Source of the DNA: Salinibacterium sp. TMP30
Lineage (GTDB): Bacteria > Actinomycetota > Actinomycetes > Actinomycetales > Microbacteriaceae
NCBI RefSeq assembly: GCF_038397785.1
Contig: NZ_CP151642.1
Span: 744,001-808,000, forward strand
Reading direction: 5' to 3'
DNA: 64,000 bases
Part shown: in pieces, positions 60,461 to 64,000 of the stretch
Layout: each line of letters begins with the position of its first letter
Numbering within the stretch: the first letter of the stretch is position 1
The notes under the pieces: model-generated
What the model was told of the DNA's origin: nothing
The model's input: the letters and a program-made list of their open reading frames with translations, nothing else
Databases searched by the model: none
Translations under genes and position numbers: made by a program

Positions 60461-60526
60461 CGGTCTTAGGATGCGCTGCGTGCGCGTGCGGCGCGGTCTT
60501 AGGATGCGCGGCGTGCGCGTGCAGCG
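60461..60526. repeat. 33-base tandem duplication at the 3' end of whiB1
   Basis: Two copies (60461-60493 and 60494-60526) start CGGTCTTAGGATGCGC and differ at two positions. The right copy contains the stop codon and last eight or so codons of whiB1 (minus strand); the left copy repeats them in the same frame, again ending in a stop. It is a direct duplication of the gene's tail, not a CRISPR or terminator. Confidence 0.8.
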
Positions 60527-60747
60527 CGACGCTTGAGTGCGCGACGCTCGTCTTCGCTGAGGCCGCCCCAGACGCCGGAGTCTTGGTTGGTCTCTAGAGC
60601 GTACTGGAGGCACATTTCAGTAACCGAGCAGCGACCGCACACGGCCTTTGCTTTTTCAATTTGATCAACGGCCGGACCGGTGTTTCCTACCGGGAAGAAA
60701 AGTTCCGGGTCAGCGGTGAGGCATGCAGCGTTATCGCGCCAGTCCAT
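60499..60747 (-). CDS. whiB1: WhiB-family regulator WhiB1
   Basis: An 82-residue iron-sulfur regulator: MDWRDNAAC start, cysteines at 9, 37, 40 and 46 (VCGRCSVTEMC), GVWGG at 58-62 and a basic tail RRALKRRAARARR for DNA binding. This is the shortest, most conserved WhiB class, WhiB1, a nitric-oxide-sensitive essential regulator in mycobacteria. ATG at 60747 has GGAG seven bases upstream. Its leader contains a hairpin with a U-run. Confidence 0.94.
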   Translation of the reverse strand: MDWRDNAACLTADPELFFPVGNTGPAVDQIEKAKAVCGRCSVTEMCLQYALETNQDSGVWGGLSEDERRALKRRAARARRAS

Positions 60748-60810: not shown

Positions 60811-60930
60811 CGAGCTTGAGAAAGAAAGTGGGTCTCGCTCGCAACACTGGGAGCCAGAAATCAACCTCAACTAGAATCGCATATCGGCCTAAGCAAAGCA
60901 ATGGTTTTTCAGCGATTTAACGGGGAGCGA

Positions 60931-61350
60931 ATGGTAGACGAACTTGTCCCAGATGAAAAACCGAGCCGGAGGCATCCATATTTGGTTGTCCTTGCTCTCG
61001 TAATCTTTCTGGAGAGTGCCCTACTTTTTGTGGCCCTCGGCTATCTGATTTTTGAGTTGGGAAGTGAGACTCCGCAGTCGTATCCGAGCGCGATCGCGTT
61101 GACGGTTCTCACGGCATTGGCGGCTATGTGGGTGGCGGTGATCGGCATTGGCGTGCTGCGACGCCAGTCGTGGATTCGTGGTGCAGCTGTGGTCTGGCAG
61201 GTGCTGCAGATCTCCGTGGCTATTGGCAGTTTTCAGGGCGTATTTGCGCGACCCGACATCGGATGGCTCTTGCTCATGCCCTCGATAGTCGTGCTCGTGT
61301 TGTTGTTTACGAAACCGGTATTGCTTCACACCGCACGGCCTCAGGGCTAA
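60931..61350 (+). CDS. Small integral membrane protein, hypothetical
   Basis: A 139-residue protein (149 if the in-frame ATG at 60901 is used) with four predicted membrane segments at roughly residues 17-38, 49-72, 82-103 and 107-127. A charged start (VDELVPDEKPSRRHPY) precedes the first. GGGGAG lies three bases before ATG 60931, rather close, and 60901 has no clear signal, so the start is open. It lies divergent from whiB1 and convergent with the DUF6671 gene. No family recognised. Confidence 0.7.
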   Translation: MVDELVPDEKPSRRHPYLVVLALVIFLESALLFVALGYLIFELGSETPQSYPSAIALTVLTALAAMWVAVIGIGVLRRQSWIRGAAVVWQVLQISVAIGSFQGVFARPDIGWLLLMPSIVVLVLLFTKPVLLHTARPQG

Positions 61351-61387: not shown

Positions 61388-62233
61388 TCAGGGATTGCAG
61401 AAGTTGCACCACTGCGGCGAAGCGCGTTTCACCGAGCGTGCAACTCGCGTGCGATACGTGCATTTTCCGCATCCATGGATGTCTGCGGCGATGATGTTGG
61501 TTGCGGTTCCGCAGCTTTCGCAGGGAACGCCGTATTCCACGTCGACCTGCCCAAAACCGGGAGTGAGACACAGTGGGCACTCTGTTGCGAGCCGGTGAGC
61601 CATTTGTTCGCACAGAGTGCGGATAACGGCCGCTCGCGAAGGACAGTGATGTGCTCGGTAGTCGGGCATTATTGACACGGAGTCGTTCGCTTCACGGAAC
61701 ACCTTCTCGCCGATGCTTAGCAGCGTTTCGCGGTCATCGATATTTTTGAACGACGTCGCTACACCGTTGTGCCCGGTTTGAAGGATTACCCGCTGTTCGG
61801 GGAAACCAATGGCGGTGGCGTAGTGGAGTGCGTCGTTGAGGTGTCGAACGGTGCGTCCTGCCAGCAAGGGGGAGATGATGATGCTTCCTTCGACAAGCTC
61901 CAACCCCAGGATGTCGTCTACGAATACGAGCACCTCAATATTCTCAACTATTGTTCCGAACCCAGTGCTGAAGGTGCCCTCTGATGCGAGCCCGTAGTGG
62001 GTTTGCTCTAGCTCCATCCCTCGTCGAGCTTTGGCTAGCGCTGTGCTGCGGGGACTGGCTGTGCGGGGAATTTCTCCCGAAAAGGTGCCAAACAGATCGG
62101 TGTTGAGCTGTTGGGCAGCGACGATGTTGGCGCCGAGCACATCCGCAAAGGCGTGGCGTGCCAGCACTTCCTTTCCATGCATGGTGGCAAATGTGATGGG
62201 TTGGTTCTGATATCTGCCTTGCGGCGGCGTCAC
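61388..62233 (-). CDS. DUF6671 family protein with two zinc-ribbon-like Cys clusters
   Basis: A 281-residue protein. Residues 10-205 form an uncharacterised domain with ITFATMHGKEV, LNTDLFGTFSGEI, YGLASEGTFS, VFVDDILGLELVEG and QTGHNG. The C-terminal 65 residues carry four CxxC pairs (Cys 219/222, 238/241, 255/258, 276/279), enough for two zinc ribbons. The family match is DUF6671, of unknown function. Its ATG overlaps the PII-like stop by four bases, so it is translated with the PII-like and DabA genes, and a role in inorganic-carbon uptake or its control is inferred from this alone. Confidence 0.8.
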   Translation of the reverse strand: MTPPQGRYQNQPITFATMHGKEVLARHAFADVLGANIVAAQQLNTDLFGTFSGEIPRTASPRSTALAKARRGMELEQTHYGLASEGTFSTGFGTIVENIEVLVFVDDILGLELVEGSIIISPLLAGRTVRHLNDALHYATAIGFPEQRVILQTGHNGVATSFKNIDDRETLLSIGEKVFREANDSVSIMPDYRAHHCPSRAAVIRTLCEQMAHRLATECPLCLTPGFGQVDVEYGVPCESCGTATNIIAADIHGCGKCTYRTRVARSVKRASPQWCNFCNP

Positions 62234-62547
62234 TTGAAATACTCGGGTCGGCTGACGTAGGTTTCAGCAACGAACATGACGCCACTCGTCGAATCGAGCA
62301 TTGCTCTGACTGCCTCAACCAATTGTTCGGCTTTGGCCTGGGGAAGCACAGTGATGATCATGGTCAAGGTGTCGTACTCGTTGAAGAGCAGATCTCCGGA
62401 GCGTTGGCCATGATGCCCGATTCCTGAAACGCCCGATACGGAGGTGTAGCCGGTCGCTCCAGCGGACGCAATGAGTTCACGCAGATCGGGTGCTTGACGC
62501 GCCGGAACGATGATTTCTATTCGAGTCATCTTGGTGAGGCCGTTCAT
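62230..62547 (-). CDS. PII-like signalling protein
   Basis: A 105-residue ferredoxin-like protein: TRIEIIVPARQAPDLRELI as first strand and helix, a T-loop-like segment VSGVSGIGHHGQRSGDL, then LTMIITVLPQAKAEQLVEAV. The fold order fits PII-like proteins; the classical uridylylation motif is absent. ATG at 62547 overlaps the DabA stop (ATGA) and has GGAAGGA upstream; a longer frame to 62586 is less likely. PII-like proteins accompany several bicarbonate-uptake systems, where they gate transport in response to nucleotides or energy state. That role here is inference. Confidence 0.82.
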   Translation of the reverse strand: MNGLTKMTRIEIIVPARQAPDLRELIASAGATGYTSVSGVSGIGHHGQRSGDLLFNEYDTLTMIITVLPQAKAEQLVEAVRAMLDSTSGVMFVAETYVSRPEYFK

Positions 62548-64000
62548 GAGTGTGGTCCTTCCATTGTGGTTGTGTGTTTTTTCCATCCGACCGACGTGTG
62601 CCGGTACCAGGGAGCGTCTGAGTCTTCACGCGCGGTCAGCGTGATCCAATCGTTGTCCAAAAGATCGCGCAGGACTTGGTTGCGGGAAACAATCCGACCG
62701 ACTTTTGTGAGGGGAGCCTGCACGAGTACGGCAAGTCGCAGCGGTTCATGGAACGCGTGTTTACCGACACCGACAGACTGCCAGGGGAGGCCGCGGCGCA
62801 GGTCACCTTCGTGGCCGGAAAGGACTCCGGTTACTCCGATCGCGTTGTGAATCGTCTTGGTTCCCGCACCCAGCGTTTCGGGGTTGAGGGTGGAGAAGTA
62901 GTACTGGTGATTGATCCATTGAGCGACGACCATCGGTGCGGTCAGGATAGTTTCCAGCGCCAAGTCGCTCTCATCCAGCTCCGGCCGATAGGAGTGCAGG
63001 AAAACTCGACGTTTGAGGTCGACGCCGCGGGTCATTTCGCGTGGGCCGATAATCATGGCGGCGTTCCCGGCCAATCCGAGCTCTGGATAGACCTCGGACC
63101 AGTCGTGCGCTCGACGCCGGATGCTCGCGGGCTTTGATCGTGTGTTGGAACCAGGGAGATCTCGAGCCCGCTCCTGAAGCAGTTGGTCGGCTGCACACCG
63201 TTGGAGCAATCGGAAGTCGCGCACCCGCTCACTGTGGCTCTCGGGAATGAGGGAACTATCGAGAACCGTGATTGCATCGGTCACCGTGTTGTGTTCGGCT
63301 GCAACGAAGACGCAGTCTTCCGGAATCGCGATTCCGCGGCGCTGAAGAAGGGTTCGAACTTCCTGATCATTGAATAGTGCAACGGCGGCACGCGCATTGG
63401 CCGCTCCCGGATTGCCCCCACAGGCACCGCAGTCGAGCGCAGACTGATACAGGTTGTTCATTGACTCGGAGGTGTGTCCGGTGATCACGATGAGCGGTGC
63501 AAAGTAGGTGAGCCCCATCATCCGGATCGCAGTTTCGGCAAGCGACACACGTTCCTCGAGCGTGAACGCATCTGCGACGGTGACTGTGCTCTCGAGCGCG
63601 GGGATCTGTTGGGAGGCGAATTCGTTGAGTCGCCCGGTGAGAGCGGGCGCGAACGTGCGCAGGATGCTCCCTGCTCCGTAGAACCATCCCGCGATCTCGG
63701 CAAGCGCGAATGGGGTTGTAGTGTTCGTGTCGGCAGCGTGCAGTGCCCTGCGCAGCGCGTTCCGCCGTCGCCGTGACCGCATATTCTTCGCAGCGTTTTC
63801 GGGAGTGAATGGCCGCTCTGTGACGTGATGGCGTGGCTCAAGCAGCGCGGGCAATGAGTTGATCGCACCCCGAGCTTGGTACTGGGAGAAGCGAATGGGG
63901 ATGCCAAAAAACCCCGCGAACCCGACTGTTTCAACGGAAGTGTCTGACTCAAGGTGACGGCGCATTCCTTCAGACCTCGGATCGATGCACATCACTACCT
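62544..64000 (-). CDS. dabA: DabA-type inorganic-carbon uptake subunit (DUF2309), 5' end outside window
   Basis: The C-terminal part (485 codons) of a DUF2309 protein; the frame stays open to the right edge. DabA is a zinc, beta-carbonic-anhydrase-like subunit that with the membrane protein DabB couples cation flux to CO2 hydration. The four active-site residues known from Halothiobacillus DabA are all here: Cys and Asp of MCIDPRSE (codons at 63987-63989 and 63981-63983), His of TGHTSES (63474-63476) and Cys of ALDCGACGG (63429-63431). His and Cys are 15 residues apart, as in the studied enzyme. DabB is expected just right of the window. Confidence 0.9.
   Translation of the reverse strand, partial: VVMCIDPRSEGMRRHLESDTSVETVGFAGFFGIPIRFSQYQARGAINSLPALLEPRHHVTERPFTPENAAKNMRSRRRRNALRRALHAADTNTTTPFALAEIAGWFYGAGSILRTFAPALTGRLNEFASQQIPALESTVTVADAFTLEERVSLAETAIRMMGLTYFAPLIVITGHTSESMNNLYQSALDCGACGGNPGAANARAAVALFNDQEVRTLLQRRGIAIPEDCVFVAAEHNTVTDAITVLDSSLIPESHSERVRDFRLLQRCAADQLLQERARDLPGSNTRSKPASIRRRAHDWSEVYPELGLAGNAAMIIGPREMTRGVDLKRRVFLHSYRPELDESDLALETILTAPMVVAQWINHQYYFSTLNPETLGAGTKTIHNAIGVTGVLSGHEGDLRRGLPWQSVGVGKHAFHEPLRLAVLVQAPLTKVGRIVSRNQVLRDLLDNDWITLTAREDSDAPWYRHTSVGWKKHTTTMEGPHS

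Follow-up and report, generated by a model that had tools for sequence, protein, structure and literature searches.

The supply and sensing of inorganic carbon (Ci), as CO2 and bicarbonate, are poorly understood in non-autotrophs. The right end of the window analysed here (the whole 64-kb stretch, G000:C1:744001-808000 of Salinibacterium sp. TMP30, whose genome is one 2.69-Mb contig) raises the question of what a DabA-type pump gene does beside a PII-like gene and a gene of the family DUF6671. The reading that we favour, with a probability of roughly 60%, is that the locus is a Ci uptake operon, in which DUF6671 is a nucleotide-acting accessory serving DAB pumps and the transporter SbtA alike. 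Gene order, families, active-site residues, linkage to two transporters, a shared regulator gene and a predicted fold were established by computation and are described below.

The right edge of the window cuts the operon and keeps its 3′ part. Reading onward in the whole genome completed it as dabB-dabA-PII-like-DUF6671, all overlapping, plus a divergent gene for a MarR-like winged-helix protein (wHTH). The features are as follows, in window positions unless a G000:C1 coordinate is given.

61388..62233, minus strand: DUF6671 gene, 281 aa, GTG start (PF20376, E 4.4e-34)
61391..61606, minus strand: C-terminal tail of DUF6671, four CxxC pairs, zinc-ribbon-like
61577..62206, minus strand: DUF6671 residues 10-219, predicted ITPase/YjjX/HAM1-like domain
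62230..62547, minus strand: PII-like gene, 105 aa, ATG start at 62547 (PF00543, E 1.5e-20)
62544..64000, running beyond the window end, minus strand: 3′ part of dabA (PF10070, E 3e-172 for the fragment)
63429..63476, minus strand: DabA H503 to C518, corresponding to H524/C539 of DabA2 (alignment)
63975..63989, minus strand: DabA C332-I-D334-P-R336, corresponding to C351/D353/R355 of DabA2 (alignment)
G000:C1:806544-808982, minus strand: whole dabA, 812 aa (PF10070, E 1.6e-217, model positions 1-747 of 747)
G000:C1:808982-810496, outside the window, minus strand: dabB, 504 aa, NuoL/Mrp-like (PF00361, E 3e-33)
G000:C1:810605-810889, outside the window, plus strand: wHTH gene, 94 aa, MarR-like winged helix

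The three minus-strand reading frames of the preliminary description lie where it placed them, and their families were confirmed by the matches to PF10070, PF00543 and PF20376. It had also described two ATGA overlaps; the one between the dabA stop and the PII-like start (62544-62547) is ATGA, whereas the one between the PII-like stop and the DUF6671 start (62230-62233) is GTGA, the start codon being GTG instead. The dabB and dabA genes overlap by TGATG, and 108 intergenic bases separate dabB from the divergent wHTH gene. The start position of the PII-like gene is common to several relatives, and that of the DUF6671 gene agrees with its relatives in the alignment. The GC content of the operon genes (0.55-0.60) is similar to that of the surroundings and thus gives no sign of recent transfer.

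The pump genes were compared with solved structures. The sole PDB sequence match of DabA at E <=0.001 was DabA2 (9rd0_A, E 1e-100), and the best match of DabB was DabB2 of DAB2. Residues C332, D334, R336, H503 and C518 of DabA align one to one with C351, D353, R355, H524 and C539 of DabA2, thereby upholding the catalytic zinc site that had been proposed for the fragment, with Cys-x-Asp-x-Arg, His and Cys all matched. Mutants of these five DabA2 residues differed significantly from the wild type in growth yield in a complementation assay (PMC13144422). The DabB gene that was to be sought right of position 64000 lies directly upstream of dabA. With a full-length DabA, five active-site residues and an adjacent NuoL/Mrp-like DabB, the locus has every feature of a DAB (DAC) that can be tested from sequence, and pump activity is predicted for TMP30. 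DabA/DabB would work as in DAB2, with the membrane potential powering a one-way hydration of CO2 to bicarbonate. The best PDB match and the presence of the five probed residues liken the locus to DAB2 (9rd0; Halothiobacillus neapolitanus, judging by its hneap locus tags). It differs in that no RuBisCO was found in the host, and in that the operon adds the PII-like gene, DUF6671 and the divergent MarR-like regulator.

No RuBisCO large subunit was found in a search of the whole genome; the earlier remark that no carbon-fixation gene was in view thus holds for this subunit, the sole fixation gene searched, and its absence points to a heterotrophic host. In a host without RuBisCO, the bicarbonate would feed ordinary carboxylations. 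The genome encodes one beta-carbonic anhydrase, so the operon is not the sole bicarbonate route, and the anaplerotic supply suggested in the preliminary description is no more than a possible role. A similar DabB/DabA-type pair, MpsAB of Staphylococcus and other Firmicutes, also occurs in a non-autotroph, and its proposed role there is an anaplerotic bicarbonate supply (PMC6689103). According to the abstract of PMC8552792, MpsAB and carbonic anhydrase rarely coexist, whereas the TMP30 genome has both a DabA/DabB pair and the beta-carbonic anhydrase. The term 'PII' is absent from the main texts of both MpsAB papers (PMC6689103, PMC8552792), whereas the TMP30 operon has a PII-like gene. Rhodopsin was seen in 10 of 17 scanned DUF6671 genomes, TMP30 included, a count that has no background rate and hence allows no conclusion.

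The PII-like protein has both the PII family profile and a sequence relation to 5d4n. Its only solved relatives at E <=0.01 were 5d4n/5d4l (E 7e-16, residues 6-104 aligned), which we take to be CPII. CPII is reportedly carboxysome-associated, by the title of Wheatley 2016, whereas RuBisCO was not found in TMP30. A PII-like protein encoded beside a bicarbonate transporter also recalls SbtA-SbtB of cyanobacteria, and such a pairing occurs near DUF6671, as SbtA-PII-DUF6671 in the Rhizobiales MAG locus L016 and as SbtA-PII adjoining DUF6671 on Arthrobacter plasmids. Unlike that system, the transporter of TMP30 is a DAB, and its PII-like protein contains no cysteine in 105 residues, hence no C-terminal cysteine pair, so that the redox R-loop found in many cyanobacterial SbtBs (PMC10991534) is missing. 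The PII-like protein may gate the pump, reading adenine nucleotides and/or bicarbonate and throttling transport. The preliminary description went further, with a PII-gated pump and DUF6671 as sensor or effector. This cannot be a general rule, because the PII-like gene is absent from the operon in seven Pseudomonadota DAB-DUF6671 loci (L018, L019, H18, H21, H25, H26 and H27).

A survey of DabA loci for DUF6671, as had been suggested, found the linkage recurring in family genomes, phylum genomes and plasmids. The chromosomal samples comprised 21 loci from genome contigs, 299 genomes of the family and 396 genomes of the phylum. DabA was in the locus in 15 of the 21, including two (L020, L022) in which the DUF6671 match is an N-terminal piece only. 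Two others had SbtA-PII-DUF6671 (L016, with the order LysR-SbtA-PII-DUF6671, and L017), and the remaining four gave no information or were degraded (contig ends truncate L012, L015 and L023; L021 is without dabA). Among the 299 family genomes, 12 had DUF6671, 15 DabA and nine both, adjoining in eight (hypergeometric P 2e-11, uncorrected for relatedness); the three with DUF6671 and no DabA (G059, G095, G229) have SbtA. In the 396 phylum genomes, DUF6671 was found in eight, DabA in 23 and SbtA above the cut-off in 18 (below-cut-off matches in G420, G507 and G633 left out), the two transporter sets being disjoint; all eight are among the 41 with DabA or SbtA (P 7e-9, likewise uncorrected). Both P values overstate the linkage, since the genomes are related. 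With G000 counted once, all 19 sampled actinobacterial DUF6671 genomes encode DabA (14) or SbtA (5). The converse fails: 33 of the 41 phylum genomes with DabA or SbtA have no DUF6671 match, nor do six of the 15 family DabA genomes, one of which (G226) has a partial match by tblastn. DUF6671 and dabA share an operon in the eight family genomes, are divergent within 1-4 kb in G464, G518, G527 and G659, are widely separated on one contig of G378 (at 0.14 and 1.95 Mb) and lie on different contigs in G189.

All 12 plasmid records with a DUF6671 match were inspected, and ten have DAB or SbtA within 3 kb. DAB accounts for seven: it adjoins DUF6671 on the Mycolicibacterium (divergent), Aminobacter, Ideonella and Fuscovulum plasmids, is one gene (cysD) away on two Mesorhizobium plasmids and three genes away on a Nocardia plasmid. 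SbtA adjoins DUF6671 divergently on three Arthrobacter plasmids, and neither transporter lies within 6 kb on the Methylocystis and Pseudomonas hygromyciniae plasmids (2/12). DUF6671 is thus not DAB-specific; it is also found beside SbtA and other genes.

These other neighbours are raw counts with no background rate beside them. An NADP-isocitrate dehydrogenase gene stands between wHTH and DUF6671 in G095, G361 and G549, from three families. TsaC adjoins DUF6671 in G059 and G229, is one gene off in Nocardia, is near it on the Pseudomonas plasmid (by tblastn only, in two frames) and lies behind DAB-PII in G518 (tblastn). IlvD adjoins DUF6671 on two plasmids of Arthrobacter sp. U41 and in Fuscovulum (family verified for one U41 copy and Fuscovulum); in Methylocystis, pyrC separates the two. 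Dihydroorotase adjoins DUF6671 on the Methylocystis and Pseudomonas plasmids, followed in Methylocystis by an annotated acyl-CoA carboxylase beta. The Mycolicibacterium plasmid has an annotated carbonic anhydrase, without an NCBIfam match at E 1e-20, and TerC-family genes recur. Some of these neighbours use CO2 or bicarbonate or have carboxylated lysines: bicarbonate is a substrate of TsaC and acyl-CoA carboxylase, and CO2 a product of isocitrate dehydrogenase. The active site of dihydroorotase contains a carbamylated lysine (PMC8497156), and in DHAD a carboxylated lysine ligates Mg (PMC9543379). CysD is out of line with this CO2 theme.

The wHTH scores above the MarR cut-offs (PF12802, 30.4 bits, cut-off 27; PF01047, 28.8, cut-off 24.6). 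Small, MarR-like and encoded divergently upstream, it would probably control the operon, which may be induced by low CO2. Of 150 family genomes, 32 had a match to it at E 1e-3, and in 22 the match was strong (>70 bits). Eight of these 22 carry DabA, and 11 of the 14 others have SbtA within about 1.2 kb of the wHTH gene (not G028, G064 and G068), at several loci with a TerC-like gene in between. The gene, located by tblastn in several loci, is also present on 5/5 actinobacterial DUF6671 plasmids. The wHTH accompanies both transporters, DAB and SbtA. Because it is common to both and to the actinobacterial DUF6671 plasmids, DAB, SbtA, DUF6671 and wHTH look like one Ci regulon. At the same place, six of the seven Pseudomonadota DAB-DUF6671 loci (not L158), and also L016, have a divergent LysR gene. 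A candidate operator palindrome, WTACRYG-N10-CRYGTAW, was spotted by eye in wHTH upstream regions and then scored on these very regions, which makes the test circular: it reached at least 12 of 14 in 12/25 DAB-locus regions, and at least 13 in 3/13 SbtA-locus regions and 1/8 others. In the 64-kb window, a score of 12 occurs at one position and is not exceeded. As operator of the TMP30 operon it was set aside as a lead only, its own promoter scoring only 11 (shuffle p 0.15).

What DUF6671 itself may do is suggested by its predicted structure, in which residues 10-219 adopt the ITPase/HAM1/YjjX fold; ITP/XTP pyrophosphatases are among its best structural matches. Sequence comparison does not bear this kinship out. 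NTPase_I, Ham1p_like and Maf were not among the 25 listed of the 26 families matched by 18 DUF6671 members at E <=10, and hhalign against single sequences was weak (E 0.15 and 0.3), K21 falling in that weak alignment on a lysine of the YjjX N-terminal loop. Besides having no significant sequence similarity to YjjX/RdgB/HAM1, DUF6671 differs by its extra cysteine-rich tail. The four CxxC pairs noticed earlier are all present (C219/222, C238/241, C255/258 and C276/279), and the eight cysteines are invariant in 18 aligned sequences as well as in a broader set of 33, so the tail probably binds zinc. Conservation in the 33 proteins is enzyme-like, with T17, H19, K21, T45, D46, G49, T50, F51, R57, K68, E85, E100, D191, R193 and R200 invariant in 33/33. 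The stretch 124-193 also resembles ATP-grasp enzymes.

On the favoured reading, DUF6671 would be a soluble nucleotide enzyme of ITPase-like fold, its cysteine-rich tail probably binding zinc. Cleavage or transfer of a nucleotide in the response to Ci limitation would be its most likely reaction, and it would serve DAB and SbtA systems alike. It might instead be the partner of PII, converting the PII-bound nucleotide (ATP to AMP + PPi, for instance) and thereby deciding whether the transporter is blocked or released by PII, a function comparable to the built-in apyrase of cyanobacterial SbtB. SbtB binds adenyl nucleotides and hydrolyses ATP/ADP to AMP, and AMP/ADP promote its binding to SbtA (PMC10991534); the DUF6671 gene overlaps and follows the PII gene in the window and follows it in many relatives, and the predicted fold resembles that of a nucleotide enzyme. 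We nevertheless consider such a partnership rather unlikely, given the seven Pseudomonadota operons without PII; where DUF6671 neighbours isocitrate dehydrogenase or dihydroorotase, the surrounding stretches likewise gave no PII match.

A house-cleaning role like that of RdgB/YjjX is doubtful to the same degree. Purine and pyrimidine synthesis would stall at its carboxylation steps when CO2 runs short, and the aberrant nucleotides that accumulate would be removed by DUF6671; the ITP/XTP pyrophosphatases among the structural matches and the dihydroorotase genes beside DUF6671 on two plasmids favour it. Far less probable is that the gene set (dihydroorotase, carbonic anhydrase, TerC) is a zinc-starvation or metal-stress island with the Ci transporters as bystanders. 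Dihydroorotase and carbonic anhydrase are zinc enzymes and TerC-family genes recur, but SbtA, TsaC, IlvD and isocitrate dehydrogenase are by textbook knowledge not zinc enzymes, the eight cysteines retained by DUF6671 itself presumably hold zinc, and DabA or SbtA is present in 19/19 sampled actinobacterial DUF6671 genomes.

Returning to the accessory of Ci uptake, DUF6671 is likely an overlooked part of the bacterial response to too little CO2. A wider reading, which is possible but tentative, is that it is the hallmark of a low-CO2 gene set that is widespread and in part carried on plasmids. DUF6671 would then be the set's own nucleotide-handling enzyme, perhaps making or destroying the nucleotide that signals CO2 status. 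This set would contain DAB or SbtA, often a PII-like gene, wHTH or LysR, TerC/Alx and extra enzymes, some using or releasing CO2/HCO3- (TsaC, acyl-CoA carboxylase, isocitrate dehydrogenase) and others needing CO2 for carboxylation of an active-site lysine (dihydroorotase PyrC, dihydroxy-acid dehydratase IlvD). Should the PyrC, IlvD and TsaC genes beside DUF6671 prove to be low-CO2 versions, one could test whether CO2 shortage disables carboxylated-lysine enzymes and whether bacteria keep substitutes for them. Through its links to two unrelated Ci transporters and the small regulator that they share, DUF6671 offers a direct handle on the CO2-limitation response. DAB was already known; the DUF6671/wHTH extension spanning DAB and SbtA appears to be new, as no report of DUF6671, or of the gene set with wHTH across DAB and SbtA, was found in the literature searched, a body that excludes most subscription papers. 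In a tree of the 33 DUF6671 proteins, which has several long branches and an arbitrary root, a 23-protein side (99/98) unites the operon-embedded copies with the stand-alone copy of G189.

Transfer and decay are suggested among the loci that encode DUF6671, the cysteine-rich uncharacterised protein of the dabB-dabA-PII-like operon, by its near-identity between Microbacterium and Tessaracoccus (loci L013 and L015), by a truncated copy common to Promicromonospora and Microbacterium (L020 and L021), and by gene losses at L021, which lacks both dabA and dabB as well as the greater part of the PII gene. The MAG JABBOD01 (L011 and L012, corresponding to G066 C75 and C76), titled Acidobacteria, was placed in Microbacteriaceae, and this title is probably a mislabel.

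In a predicted model of DUF6671, a 66-residue stretch within residues 124-193 is similar to a segment of ATP-grasp enzymes, examples being biotin carboxylase and CPS1, which are themselves bicarbonate users. Genes of CO2- or bicarbonate-linked enzymes, namely, TsaC, IlvD, dihydroorotase, acyl-CoA carboxylase and isocitrate dehydrogenase, recur near DUF6671; TerC/Alx-family membrane protein genes are repeated neighbours of SbtA, the wHTH regulator gene or DUF6671, and, outside Microbacteriaceae, three actinobacterial genomes each have an enoyl-ACP-reductase-like gene close to DAB. The loci are as follows:

L147, L150, L151, L153, L155, L157; L055, L075, L078; L054, L056: CO2- or bicarbonate-linked enzyme genes near DUF6671
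L127, L017, L020: TerC/Alx-family genes, by Pfam
L148, L153, L155: TerC/Alx-family genes, by annotation
L124, L130, L133-L136: TerC/Alx-family genes, by resemblance only
L079 1096-1914: enoyl-ACP-reductase-like gene, by Pfam
L077 8840-9625; L081 2854-3147: enoyl-ACP-reductase-like genes, by resemblance only

A candidate palindromic operator was located between dabB and the divergent wHTH gene, and an ORF and a regulator gene lie beyond the 3' side of the operon:

L002 10497-10604, just outside the window: dabB/wHTH intergenic region with candidate operator WTACRYG-N10-CRYGTAW
window 60901-61350, +: ORF between the operon and the WhiB-family gene
window 60499-60747: WhiB-family regulator gene

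With consensus and test drawn from the same regions, the candidate palindrome stands out clearly in many relatives and at three loci linked to SbtA, and is weak in Salinibacterium sp. TMP30 (11/14 against the consensus).

The rhodopsins of two genomes are 83% identical:

G000:C1:2532032-2532709: rhodopsin gene of Salinibacterium sp. TMP30
L004 6920-7735: rhodopsin gene of Cryobacterium sp. HLT2-28, convergent with DUF6671 and 76 bases away

The latter arrangement would mean a light-driven pump adjoining a PMF-driven inorganic-carbon pump. Among the 19 actinobacterial DUF6671 genomes of the family and phylum samples, the sole RuBisCO was detected in G378, approximately 12 kb from DabA (G378:C1:130115-145778); the DUF6671 gene of this genome is on the same contig as both but far off.
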